Made by a program: the position numbers and the translations under genes. 64,000 nt of DNA, from positions 1-64,000 of the forward strand of contig JASHOA010000074.1 of NCBI GenBank assembly GCA_030041375.1, read 5' to 3'. Numbering within the stretch: the stretch's first letter is position 1; every line of letters begins with the position of its first letter. Positions 2,368-63,298 of the stretch are shown one piece after another. Source of the stretch: Acetobacteraceae bacterium (lineage in GTDB: Bacteria; Pseudomonadota; Alphaproteobacteria; Acetobacterales; Acetobacteraceae). The notes under the pieces were generated by a model. The model worked only from the letters and a program-made list of their open reading frames with translations. It made no database searches and was not told the origin of the DNA.

Positions 2368-3801
2368 TCAGGCGCTCGCCTGCGAGACGAACTTGGTGGC
2401 GAGGTAACCCTCGATCGCCTCGAGCCCGCCTTCCGAGCCGTACCCGGAGTCCTTGACCCCCCCGAACGGGACCTCCGGCAGGGCAAGCCCGTGGTGATTG
2501 ATCGAGATCATGCCGCTCTCCACCGCGCCGGCGATCGCGTTCGCGGTCTTGGTGGAACGCGTATAGGCATAGGCGGCAAGACCGTAGGGCAGACGGTTGG
2601 CTTCGGCGACCACCTCATCGAACTCGCGGAACGGAGTGATCATCGCCACCGGGCCAAACGGCTCTTCGTTCATTGCGCGCGCGGTTTTCGGCACATTGGT
2701 GAGCACGGTCGGTTCGAAAAAATAGCCCTTGTTGCCGATCCGCTCGCCGCCCGTGACGAGTTCCGCACCCTTCTGCACCGCATCGGTGATAAATCCTTCC
2801 ATCGCGGCGACGCGCCGCTCATGCGCGAGCGGACCCATTTGCGTCGCCGGATCGAGGCCGTCACCGACCTTCAGTTTTTTGGCGACGGCGACGAAGCGAC
2901 TGACAAAATCGTCGTACAACTTCTCCTGCACCAGGAAGCGCGTGGGCGCGATGCAGACCTGCCCCGCATTGCGGAACTTGCTGGCGGAGAGAATCCTGGC
3001 TGCAGCGTCGAGGTCGGCGTCCTCGAAGACGATCGCAGGGGCGTGCCCGCCGAGCTCCATCGTAACCCGCTTCATGTGGGCCCCGGCCATCGCCGCCAGT
3101 TGCTTGCCGACCGCAGTCGAGCCGGTGAAGGAAATCTTGCGCACCAAAGGATGCGGAATGAGATAGCTCGAAATTTCCGCCGGCACCCCGAAAACAAGAT
3201 TGATGACGCCGGCCGGGACGCCGGCTTCGGTATAGGCGCGCACCAGCTCGGCGCACGAGGCAGGAGTCTCCTCAGGCCCCTTGATGATGATCGAGCAGCC
3301 GGCGGCCAATGCGGCCGAGATTTTTCGCACCGCCTGATTGAGCGGGAAATTCCACGGCGTGAAAGCAGCAACGACGCCGACGGGCTCCTTGATGACAAGC
3401 TGGTAGACGCCCTGCGCGCGCGCCGGAACGACCCGGCCATAGGTCCGGCGCGCCTCCTCGGCGAACCATTCGATGATATCGCCGGCAGCTGTCGTCTCGC
3501 CTTTTGCTTCGGCGAGCGGCTTGCCCTGCTCGGTGGTCATGACGCGTGCGATCGCGTCCACGCGGTCGCGGATCAGGCCGGCTGCCTTGCGCATGATCCT
3601 GGCGCGATCATAGGCGGAGATTTTGCGCCAGGTCTCGAAACCCTTGGCGGCGGCAGCGAGTGCACGATCAAGATCGGCAGCCTCGGCGCGCGCGACGTTG
3701 CCGATCGGCTCGCCGCTTGCCGGGTTGAGGACGGCGATCGTCTTGCCGGCGGCGCTCGCGCTCCAGGCGCCGTCGATAAACAACGAGACGTCAGAATACA
3801 T
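2368..3801 (-). CDS. gabD: NAD(P)-dependent succinate-semialdehyde dehydrogenase-like aldehyde dehydrogenase
   Basis: A 477-residue aldehyde dehydrogenase that oxidises an aldehyde, most likely succinate semialdehyde, with NAD(P)+. Family motifs are in order: FTPWNFPLN near residue 147, the KGPEETP cofactor loop near 174, FTGS near 225, the general base Glu249 in MELGG, the catalytic Cys283 in GQVC, and EEPFGP toward the C-terminus. The KPxEETP-type loop and the overall length agree best with GabD, but related semialdehyde dehydrogenases cannot be excluded. It is monocistronic, with no gabT or regulator next to it. The ATG at 3801 starts the standard N-terminal LFIDGAW strand. Confidence 0.85.
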
Positions 3802-60350: not shown

Positions 60351-60492
60351 TGTCGGGGTTCTCCGTGAGTGCGGGCGGACGCGCCGCCCCGGGGCTATTG
60401 CGGGGCCAGCATATCGGCCGGCACATCGATCTGGAATGCAAATCATCGGCGGTTGGAACGCGCGACCCCCGTGAAGCCTCCGACGATCGCCG

Positions 60493-60528
60493 CCCATTTT
60501 TTATGAACTGCCCATTTTTCATGAACTG
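60493..60528. repeat. Tandem 18-bp direct repeat next to tRNA-Leu
   Basis: CCCATTTTTTATGAACTG (60493-60510) and CCCATTTTTCATGAACTG (60511-60528) are adjacent and differ by one base. They end two bases from the encoded CCA of tRNA-Leu. This AT-rich patch may be a processing or termination region, or scar of an integration event at the tRNA. Confidence 0.7.
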
Positions 60529-60529
60529 A

Positions 60530-60860
60530 TGGTGCGGACGGCGGGACTCGAACCCGCACTCCCCACTGGGGAAGCAGATTTTCCTGCCACTTCGGCTTCC
60601 GCCGCCGCCGGCCATGACTGCCGGTGTTCGTGGTCTGGACTATCCCTTCACCATGGTCCGCCAGGACTTCAGGCGCCGCCCGTCTAGTCTCTACACCTTC
60701 CCCGAATCGAAATTCGGGGCTTGGCTCGGGATTGGCCCGTGCCCCGCAGAATTTGCCGGGCCGCCGGCGTTCCCCGAATTTGGGCAGTTCTGCACCGCGG
60801 GTTTCCTCGCGGGCACTCCGCTTACGAAGTCTGCCGCGTCTGCCTTTCCGCCACGTCCGC
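60530..60860 (-). tRNA. tRNA-Leu(UAA) gene interrupted by a group I intron
   Basis: Minus strand. 5' exon 60860-60827, 3' exon 60582-60530. Joined exons fold as a class II tRNA: acceptor GCGGACG/CGTCCGC, D arm GCG/CGC, anticodon arm GCAGA-CTTAAAA-TCTGC (anticodon TAA), long variable arm (CCCC AGT GGGG), T arm GCGGG-TTCGAGT-CCCGC, CCA encoded (60532-60530). The intron falls between U34 and A35 of the anticodon, the same position as the well-known cyanobacterial and plastid tRNA-Leu(UAA) introns. All arms are perfectly paired, so the gene should be functional after splicing. Confidence 0.9.
60583..60826 (-). ncRNA. Group I self-splicing intron in tRNA-Leu(UAA)
   Basis: A 244-nt intron without an open frame. 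The 5' exon ends in U and the intron in G, as group I splicing demands. P1 can form between the exon end ACUU plus intron CG and the guide CGGAGU, placing the diagnostic U.G wobble at the splice site. The R-type element UAGAGACUAGACGG (60694-60681) and S-type element GGGAUAGUCC (60646-60637) pair GACUA with UAGUC to make P7, the guanosine-binding helix. These are the conserved core of group IC3-type tRNA introns. Confidence 0.88.
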
Positions 60861-60885: not shown

Positions 60886-61800
60886 TCAGGCCTCGGCCGC
60901 GATACGGCACGCGATATCGAGCCCGCTTCGAATCAGTTTTTCGCTCGCCTCGGGCGTGCGGAACCCACTGTGCGCCGAAAGCGTGACATTTTCGAGCCTG
61001 GTCAGCGGGTGGTCGGCCGGTAGCGGTTCGGTCGCGAATACGTCGAGCGCCGCATGGCCGATCTTTCCTGCCTCGAGTGCCGCAAACATCGCCTCTTCGT
61101 CCACCAGCGCAGCGCGTGCGGTATTGACGAGGATCGCCCCGGGGCGAAGCCTGGCGATGCGCGCGGAATCGAGGAAGCCCCTTGTCGCGTCGGTCAGCAA
61201 CAGATGCAGCGAGACGACATGGCTTTCCGCGAGCAGCGTCTCGAGCGGAACGAAGCTGACACCGGGAGCGGATTTCGGCGTCCGGTTCCACGCCATGACC
61301 CGCATTCCAGAGCCCGCCGCGATGCGCGCCACTTCGGCTCCGATGCCGCCGAATCCGATCAGCCCGATGCTCTTCCCGGTCAGTTCCATCCCCTCGGTGC
61401 GCAGCCACTCGCCCTGGCGCATCGCGCGATCCATGCGCGCAACCCCACGCGCCGCCGCCCACATCAGCGCGATCGTGTGCTCGGCGACCGCCGTATCTCC
61501 GTAACCCTTGATGATGTGGACCTGGATACCGAGGCCGGCAAGCTCTTCCGGGTGCATGTAGCTGCGGGCGCCGGTGCCGAGGAAGATGATGTGCCGGAGG
61601 CCGCGGCAGCGACGCATCGCTTCCGTCGGCATGGGTGTGTGATCGTCGATCACGAAATCGGCACCGTCGAGCAGGCGGGGCAGGGTTTCGGCCGGGACGT
61701 GATCCTCCTCGTAGAGAACGACAGGCGGGTCGCCGGCCCGGCGCACCTTGCGGTAAACGTCGCCGAGAGCGTCGCTTGCGTCGATGAACACGCCTTGCAT
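60886..61800 (-). CDS. D-2-hydroxyacid dehydrogenase family protein
   Basis: A 304-residue NAD-dependent 2-hydroxyacid dehydrogenase. N-terminal catalytic part with FVIDDHTPMPTEAMRRCRGL and GTGARSYMHPEELAGLGI; NAD motif IGFGGIGAEVARIAAGSGMR near residue 155; catalytic Arg/Glu and His in LVNTARAALVDEEAMFAAL and LSAHSGFRTPEA. The conserved GxGxxG-(x)17-acid is loosely kept (NRTP, so NADP is possible). Substrate unknown; phosphoglycerate-like, glyoxylate and formate types are alternatives. GGTGGAG precedes the ATG. Confidence 0.82.
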   Translation of the reverse strand: MQGVFIDASDALGDVYRKVRRAGDPPVVLYEEDHVPAETLPRLLDGADFVIDDHTPMPTEAMRRCRGLRHIIFLGTGARSYMHPEELAGLGIQVHIIKGYGDTAVAEHTIALMWAAARGVARMDRAMRQGEWLRTEGMELTGKSIGLIGFGGIGAEVARIAAGSGMRVMAWNRTPKSAPGVSFVPLETLLAESHVVSLHLLLTDATRGFLDSARIARLRPGAILVNTARAALVDEEAMFAALEAGKIGHAALDVFATEPLPADHPLTRLENVTLSAHSGFRTPEASEKLIRSGLDIACRIAAEA

Positions 61801-62050
61801 GCCGTTTTCTCCACCTTCCGGGCCGATAGTGCGGAAGACCCGATCGCGCGGCAAGGCACTGCCCTCGCCCGTTTGCCAGCCGGCGGAACCCTCCGGCCGG
61901 GACCGGTTGACTTGCGCCATGCCGGGGCTGCAAGTTTCATATGAACAGGGTGCAGTAAGGCCCTGCCGGGGGAGGTAATCGACAAGGTGGCGCTCGTACC
62001 CGGAAGGCATCATCCTGCCGCCGAGGATCGTTCCAGAAGAGGAGGCGCAC

Positions 62051-63298
62051 ATGAAAACAAAGCTGCTGGTAGCCTGTTTCGGCTTGGCACTGTTGGCGGG
62101 AGCGTGGTGGCCTGGTCCAGCGAGAGCCGCTACGTCCGGGCCCGTCACCGACCCGCTCGGGGTCATCCGCATTCCCAAGGGTGCGCCGATCGTCATCGGC
62201 GGCTACTGGGTCCTGTCGGGCCCGGATACCGCTCTCGGGCTCGACGAGAAGCGGGCGGTCGAAGTGGCCATCCACGACATCGGCGGCAATTTGCTCGGGC
62301 ACCCGATCGAGTTTCAGGCCGAGGATGATCAGTGCGACGCCGAAGGCGGGCAGACGGCGGCCACCAAGCTCGCCTCGATCCCCAACATGGTGATCGTGAT
62401 CGGCCCCGCCTGCTCCAGTGCCGCCACACCGGCGGCGCCTATTCTCTGGCAGGCCGGGATCGTCGATATCGGCACCGCCTGCACTGCGCCCTCGCTCACC
62501 GCGCCCGACCGCAAGGCAACGTACGACGGCTTCGTGCGAACCGTCTTCAGCGACAACGACCAGGGCGCCTTCGACGCGCACTACATCTACGACGTCCTGA
62601 AGCTGAAGACGGCGGTCGCCGTGCATGACGGCAGCCCCTACGCCGAGCAGCTTGCGCACGTCTTCGCCGGCGCCTTCAGCCAACTCGGGGGCAAGGTCCT
62701 CTCGATCGAGGCGGTGTCGCCGACCGAAGTGGATATGCACCCGGTGCTCACTCGCATCGCCAGCGAGAAGCCGGACGTGATCTACATGCCGATCTTCGTC
62801 GCGGCGTCGGCGCAGATTCTCCGCCAGGCCAAGGAAATACCCGGCCTCCAGCATGCCTTGATCTATGGCGGGGCCTCGCTGATGGCGCCCGACATGATCG
62901 AGGCCGCCGGGCCCGCCGTGGTCGGGTTCCATATCGGCTACCCCGACGTTTCGCCGACCTCGATGGGCAAGACCTACCCCAAGCTGGTCACCGAGTACAC
63001 GAAGATGTTCGGCGAAGCGCCGATCTCGGGCTTCCACGCCAACGCCTATGACGGGGCGACGCTCGCCTTCAAGGCCATCGAGGCAGTCGCCAAAACCGAC
63101 TCCGCGGGCACTCTCTATATCGGCAAGAAGGCGCTCCGGGATGCCGTGTTCGCCACCACGTTCGACGGCATGAGCGGCCCGATCGCCTGCGATCAGTATG
63201 GCGAATGCGCCAAGTTCAAGGGAGCGGTCTTCGAGTACACGAACGCCGATCCGAAGACTTTCAAGATCGGCGTGAACCCGAAGAAGATCTGGCCCTGA
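62051..63298 (+). CDS. Branched-chain amino acid-type ABC transporter substrate-binding protein
   Basis: A 415-residue periplasmic binding protein of the LivJ/LivK (Peripla_BP_6) family. Signal peptide LLVACFGLALLAGAWWPG. Mature part begins VIGGYWVLSGPDTALGLD and has VEVAIHDIGGNLLGHPIEFQ, ECAKFKGAVFEY etc. The ligand may be a branched-chain amino acid, amide or urea. The downstream permease is in the same direction but separated by a repeat-filled 355-base gap. Confidence 0.88.
   Translation: MKTKLLVACFGLALLAGAWWPGPARAATSGPVTDPLGVIRIPKGAPIVIGGYWVLSGPDTALGLDEKRAVEVAIHDIGGNLLGHPIEFQAEDDQCDAEGGQTAATKLASIPNMVIVIGPACSSAATPAAPILWQAGIVDIGTACTAPSLTAPDRKATYDGFVRTVFSDNDQGAFDAHYIYDVLKLKTAVAVHDGSPYAEQLAHVFAGAFSQLGGKVLSIEAVSPTEVDMHPVLTRIASEKPDVIYMPIFVAASAQILRQAKEIPGLQHALIYGGASLMAPDMIEAAGPAVVGFHIGYPDVSPTSMGKTYPKLVTEYTKMFGEAPISGFHANAYDGATLAFKAIEAVAKTDSAGTLYIGKKALRDAVFATTFDGMSGPIACDQYGECAKFKGAVFEYTNADPKTFKIGVNPKKIWP

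Follow-up and report, generated by a model that had tools for sequence, protein, structure and literature searches.

Within the window, i.e., the whole stretch of 64,000 nucleotides analysed here, a tRNA-Leu(UAA) gene occupies positions 60860-60530 of the minus strand and is split between U34 and A35 by an intron of 244 nt. We conclude, with a probability of roughly 0.93, that the gene is functional, that its insert after U34 is a group I intron without an ORF that belongs to an alphaproteobacterial clade, and that splicing, as predicted, restores the tRNA. Group I introns in tRNA genes are already known, and this gene adds a clear-cut but unremarkable example of that ribozyme type. Such introns are common in Alphaproteobacteria and other bacteria, and their distribution is unexpectedly broad. 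This breadth, together with the additional host tRNAs reported below, is of more interest than the single gene.

The split gene and its ribozyme core

All features described in this section lie on the minus strand. The 5' exon (60827-60860, GCGGACGTGGCGGAAAGGCAGACGCGGCAGACTT) ends at U34, and the 3' exon (60530-60582, AAAATCTGC...GTCCGCACCA) extends from A35 to the encoded CCA; both agree with uninterrupted orthologues. The intron between them (60583-60826) has G as its last base, contains no ORF and offers no space for an endonuclease gene. Joined in silico after U34, the exons yield an 87-nt class II tRNA-Leu with anticodon TAA and an intact cloverleaf. An earlier note on this DNA had given the coordinates, the length and the boundaries correctly. 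Its identification of the gene as tRNA-Leu(UAA), and of U34/A35 as the site also used by the cyanobacterial and plastid introns, is borne out by the in silico splicing together with uninterrupted orthologues, i.e., empty sites. The upstream neighbour (60886-62196) is a putative 2-hydroxyacid dehydrogenase-like gene, with its function named from sequence, and marks the orthologous locus in relatives. Directly downstream of the tRNA (60488-60530), two near-identical copies follow in succession, CAGTTCATGAAAAATGGG and CAGTTCATAAAAAATGGG.

The splice boundaries read ACUU|...GAGU and ...CAGG|AAAA, with the P1 helix and the terminal G that are characteristic of group I introns. P1 (60815-60830) pairs the exon end ACUU with the internal guide GAGU, with the U.G pair located at the 5' splice site, and CG/CG and the loop UAAG cap the helix; the minimum-energy fold contains the identical hairpin. 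Reading further into the intron, we find a putative P2 hairpin, CCGCG/CGCGG (60795-60812), the P3 5' strand CUGCCC (60782-60787), and P4, in which UUCGGGG (60778-60772) pairs with UCCCGAG (60731-60725) and P5 lies in between. These are followed by the P6/P6a region (60690-60724), which includes the hairpin CCCCGAAUUUCGAUUCGGGG. P4 and P6/P6a are both present in the alignment consensus, with covariation in the former and agreement with the minimum-energy fold in the latter. Covariation likewise delineates the P7 5' strand (R) GACUA (60685-60689), the P3 3' strand GGGCGG (60676-60681), the P8 hairpin (60649-60675) and the P7 3' strand (S) UAGUC (60638-60642). A putative P9 region, read from the sequence, extends up to the 3' splice site (60583-60637). 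The intron thus contains the P3, P4, P6, P7 and P8 core with the P3/P7 pseudoknot; P1 with its U.G pair and the R and S elements, all named in the earlier note, are present. The Rfam model RF00028 (Intron_gpI) matches 60836-60627 over its full length (model positions 1-253) with 33.2 bits and E=1e-6, which is below the curated cut-off of 50 bits, so that the intron is listed only with an E-value threshold and is absent from a default scan. It is the sole match of this model in the genome.

For a covariation test, the cores of 50 related introns were aligned and 31 pairs from P3 to P8 were evaluated, with the P3/P7 pseudoknot written out. Within these 50 introns, 97.5% of the core cells are paired; shuffles reach 82.6% and slid controls 26-44%. 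The percentage for the real core is favoured by the procedure, because all helices except P7 were derived from the RNAalifold consensus of the same alignment. None of 500 shuffles equalled the pairing of the real core. Two-sided changes occur in 21 of the 31 pairs, including all six pairs of P3, and the covariation score is 0.427, whereas shuffles give 0.141 and slid controls no more than 0.10. These two-sided changes are not accounted for by deriving the structure from that alignment. The outer (closing) pair of P7, for example, is A-U, G-C, C-G or U-A among the relatives. Covarying core and full-length model match together sustain the claim of a group I intron; the covariance model did find a core, the absence of which had been named beforehand as a reason to abandon the claim. 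By its likeness to bacterial tRNA introns, the intron can be assigned to IC3, the small bacterial tRNA-intron type. It resembles, by description, the Azoarcus intron of this class (Tanner and Cech 1996), which is also small, ORF-less and located in the anticodon loop; the Azoarcus intron resides in a different tRNA, tRNA-Ile(CAU), and serves as a model for the mechanism.

Judged from sequence comparison and from established knowledge of group I introns, the 244-base intron RNA almost certainly excises itself. The transcript would fold such that guide GAGU and exon end ACUU form P1, and a guanosine held in P7 would then cleave after U34. The released 5' exon would attack behind the terminal G of the intron, and ligation of the exons would give the mature tRNA-Leu with anticodon UAA.

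It is highly improbable that the locus is instead a degenerate pseudogene, or resembles a split tRNA gene by chance, and produces no tRNA. This alternative could draw on the Rfam score under the curated threshold and on the rarity of UUA codons, of which there is 1 in five window genes. Against it stand conserved exons, compensatory changes in the intron and the intact cloverleaf with its CCA. Within the genus, 0-3 of the 87 exon positions vary, compared with 14-43 of 229-244 in the intron, which is present in all five genus genomes searched. Furthermore, the draft genome (95 contigs) holds 42 complete tRNA genes, among which no second tRNA-Leu(UAA) was found; the earlier note had regarded an uninterrupted copy elsewhere, with the split gene not expressed or spliced, as fatal to its claim. 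The other leucine anticodons are CAA, GAG, TAG and CAG. According to the decoding rules, anticodon CAA cannot read UUA. tRNA-Ile(GAU) and tRNA-Ala(UGC) are likewise missing from the list, and the draft is therefore incomplete for tRNAs and may lack an unassembled second tRNA-Leu(UAA).

The locus in relatives and the origin of the intron

An uninterrupted tRNA-Leu(UAA) lies at the orthologous locus beside the dehydrogenase gene in four family members (G120, G089, G081 and G096), the best of these sharing 91% identity with the window tRNA after splicing. In a further genome (G031), the orthologous locus is filled by an intron of a different lineage. Empty and differently filled loci fix the splice points and indicate that introns were gained, lost or replaced at this position in the genome. 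The alphaproteobacterial nature of the host, as proposed earlier, is confirmed by a genome of the same family (G134), the locus of which matches that of Acetobacteraceae bacterium AT-5844 without a difference; this places the host in the Acetobacteraceae.

In phylogenetic trees, the window intron falls into a clade of alphaproteobacterial Leu introns from Acetobacteraceae, Rhodobacterales, Hyphomicrobiales and Sphingomonadales, with modest support (89/75 in one tree, 74/79.8 in another). Mean identity, computed over 201 columns, is 83% between the window intron and the rest of its own clade. For the tRNA-Arg(CCU) introns of Alphaproteobacteria the mean is 71%, for the remaining non-cyanobacterial Leu introns 70%, and for 29 cyanobacterial Leu introns 56%, with a best value of 60%. 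Exon identity is 0.90 inside the window clade across orders versus 0.78 to other Leu-intron clades within an order. As the exons track the intron clade over the host order, this suggests that tRNA exons and intron often moved together; the clade would have passed between orders, often with its exons, along a transfer route that we infer. Part of this co-segregation could stem from selection for compatibility of exon and intron instead of joint transfer.

Five loci (L089, near 3514-3565, L093, L114, L140 and L166) carry a truncated tRNA-Leu 5' half that ends in the anticodon loop and sits 80-200 nt upstream of the intron-bearing tRNA-Leu(UAA). The spacer is alike in L089, L093 and L114 despite hosts of different orders or families. 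These halves are possibly the scar of a gene replacement or integration; with respect to an integrative element, inspection by eye of the ORFs listed within 8 kb of the latter three loci gave no obvious integrase.

The tRNA-Leu intron of cyanobacteria and plastids (Paquin et al. 1997, as cited in a passage of PMC4033280) shares with the window intron the tRNA gene, the insertion point U34|A35, a P1 with U.G and the core helices P3-P8. The earlier note had left the choice between a horizontal transfer of this lineage and an independent insertion. A recent transfer from cyanobacteria or plastids into the host could build on the common gene, site and core, and grouping the window clade with the cyanobacteria survives AU tests on two data sets (p=0.31 and p=0.53, the latter from a data set whose free search was incomplete, since constrained trees scored higher). 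The identity of 56% contradicts it, set against 83% within the own clade and 71% to alphaproteobacterial Arg introns, as does the fully supported cyanobacterial clade (100/100), which is set off by a branch 1.7 changes per column long and leaves the window intron outside. In addition, cyanobacteria share a different P7-P9 segment, with the 3' P7 region GAGAGTCCAATTC, where the window intron has GATAGTCCAGACC instead. We therefore consider a recent cyanobacterial donor very unlikely on the basis of these comparisons.

Two other origins are left to weigh, and both concern the origin of the intron only and are compatible with a functional, split tRNA-Leu(UAA) gene. One is the other half of the earlier choice, namely that an intron of the alphaproteobacterial tRNA-Arg(CCU) type moved independently to U34|A35, for example by reverse splicing, and converged on the cyanobacterial case. 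The Agrobacterium-type introns of Reinhold-Hurek and Shub (1992) reportedly reside in tRNA-Arg(CCU). Arg(CCU) introns are the nearest large group after the alphaproteobacterial Leu introns, and they are common in the family of the host, sometimes in the same genome as a Leu intron (G005, G013, G021 and G024); unlike the window intron, they insert at 36|37 and carry another guide sequence. The tRNA-Arg(CCU) gene of the host genome itself is uninterrupted. In a larger, quick tree of 222 rows, in which one row labelled Leu (L214) is really Arg, the window clade and the Arg(CCU) introns come together (SH-aLRT 86), and the likelihood favours holding the window clade with Arg introns over holding it with cyanobacteria. 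The occurrence of the intron lineage also in Thr, Lys and Leu(CAA) tRNAs points in the same direction. However, the join with Arg introns is without strong support, every Leu row lies on one side of a branch in a smaller tree (66/94), and a single all-Leu clade survives the AU test (p=0.77 in the data set with the incomplete free search). We thus offer an independent insertion as a tentative possibility.

The other origin assumes one ancient Leu(UAA) intron lineage across phyla, of which the window and the cyanobacterial introns are old branches, followed by transfers, losses and moves to other tRNAs. It is supported by the recurrence of the same gene and insertion site across seven or more phyla, and by the all-Leu monophyly that the AU tests leave standing; indeed, these tests reject none of the three groupings, be it window clade with Arg, window clade with cyanobacteria or the all-Leu clade. 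On the opposite side are the patchy occurrence, with only about 15 of 200 family genomes and uninterrupted orthologues at the same locus, and the Arg, Thr and Lys introns nested among Leu introns in the larger tree. We regard an ancient common lineage as a possibility just as tentative as an independent insertion.

Distribution in bacteria and the annotation gap

Scanning genome contigs for the Leu-intron pattern returned at least 118 stretches. In silico splicing identified 103 of these, plus 12 loci of relatives, as tRNA-Leu(UAA) genes that are interrupted at U34|A35, including a few doubtful loci with odd insert lengths (L122 and L145). Among the matches listed, the introns occur in at least seven phyla, i.e., Cyanobacteriota, Pseudomonadota (alpha and gamma), Acidobacteriota, Planctomycetota, Bacteroidota, Bacillota and Vulcanimicrobiota, and many of the non-cyanobacterial ones are alphaproteobacterial. 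Proteobacterial carriers comprise Rhodobacterales, Sphingomonadales, Hyphomicrobiales, Acetobacterales, Rhodospirillales and Gammaproteobacteria. Related introns are also present in cultivated bacteria, for instance Rhodovulum steppense and Xanthobacter agilis. The site is thus not foreign to Proteobacteria; the earlier note had placed the described proteobacterial tRNA introns mostly in tRNA-Arg(CCU) and tRNA-Ile(CAU). Of 200 family genomes sampled evenly, 88 carry an intron of this type; judged by exon patterns, the Leu(UAA) intron accounts for the approximately 15 genomes mentioned above, and most other carriers have it in Arg(CCU). At the class level, 50 of 385 genomes contain such an intron.

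Vepritskiy et al. (2002, J. Bacteriol.) reportedly described a group I intron in the tRNA-Leu(UAA) gene of a subsurface gammaproteobacterium, which is prior art for our main claim. By this description, the two introns have a proteobacterial tRNA-Leu(UAA) in common, and their hosts belong to different classes. In the literature searched, we found no report of tRNA-Leu(UAA) introns in Alphaproteobacteria. The distribution found here can be set beside the count of four interrupted tRNA genes in a 2007 paper (PMC1995217; see also PMC11408192).

Interrupted alphaproteobacterial tRNAs number at least seven, namely Leu UAA, Leu CAA, Arg CCU, Thr GGU, Thr CGU, Lys UUU and Lys CUU. Related group I introns were observed in Thr GGU (L014, L015, L266, L277 and L313), Thr CGU (L320), Lys UUU (L016, L303, L316, L326 and L329), Lys CUU (L246, L248, L256 and L336) and Leu CAA (L282 and L325). 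These additional introns use the sites 33|34, 34|35, 35|36 and 36|37, and the spliced exons yield the expected tRNAs. Host-tRNA labels of His, Thr and Pro assigned automatically by ARAGORN proved spurious, as exon patterns and checked splicing identify these cases as Arg(CCU) introns; three candidate Thr introns (L272, L279 and L302) were likewise rejected and are Arg instead.

It is an evenly balanced proposition that the Leu(UAA) introns at U34|A35 form a bacteria-wide, horizontally moving ribozyme family, in which the cyanobacterial and plastid trnL intron is one long branch, and which in Alphaproteobacteria has spread into at least seven tRNAs and been missed by annotation. With many outgroups at hand, the long-standing question of whether cyanobacteria have the trnL intron as an ancient trait becomes testable.

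The split gene is overlooked by default tools. ARAGORN without introns called no tRNA at 60860-60530, and a default Rfam scan at the gathering threshold did not report the intron; standard annotation would therefore skip the gene, and the genome may seem to be without a tRNA-Leu(UAA). When introns were allowed, ARAGORN labelled the gene Phe(GAA), because the last G of the intron plus AAAATC resembles a Phe anticodon loop. This label was rejected, as the uninterrupted orthologues give Leu(UAA). tRNAscan-SE 2.0 is, according to its authors, not designed for such introns (PMC8450103).

Several individual loci deserve mention. One intron (L308, G103:C107) apparently lies, by our reading by eye, within a putative tRNA-Arg(UCU). 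In two genomes (L024 and L227, from G028 and G139), an intron interrupts what seems to be an unusual class II tRNA; with the presumed splice sites, its anticodon loop lacks U33 and reads around CUAG (7 or 8 nt). An acidobacterial contig (L166) contains two intron-bearing tRNA-Leu(UAA) genes with similar yet different introns. An AT-rich contig in an alphaproteobacterial genome (L333, G278:C103) has a tRNA-Leu intron of cyanobacterial type and is probably a plastid or cyanobacterial contamination of the assembly. Finally, the Leu(UAA) intron of the cyanobacterium Myxacorys almedinensis (L146) groups with Acidobacteriota (Blastocatellia), apart from other cyanobacteria, and possibly represents an intron replacement.
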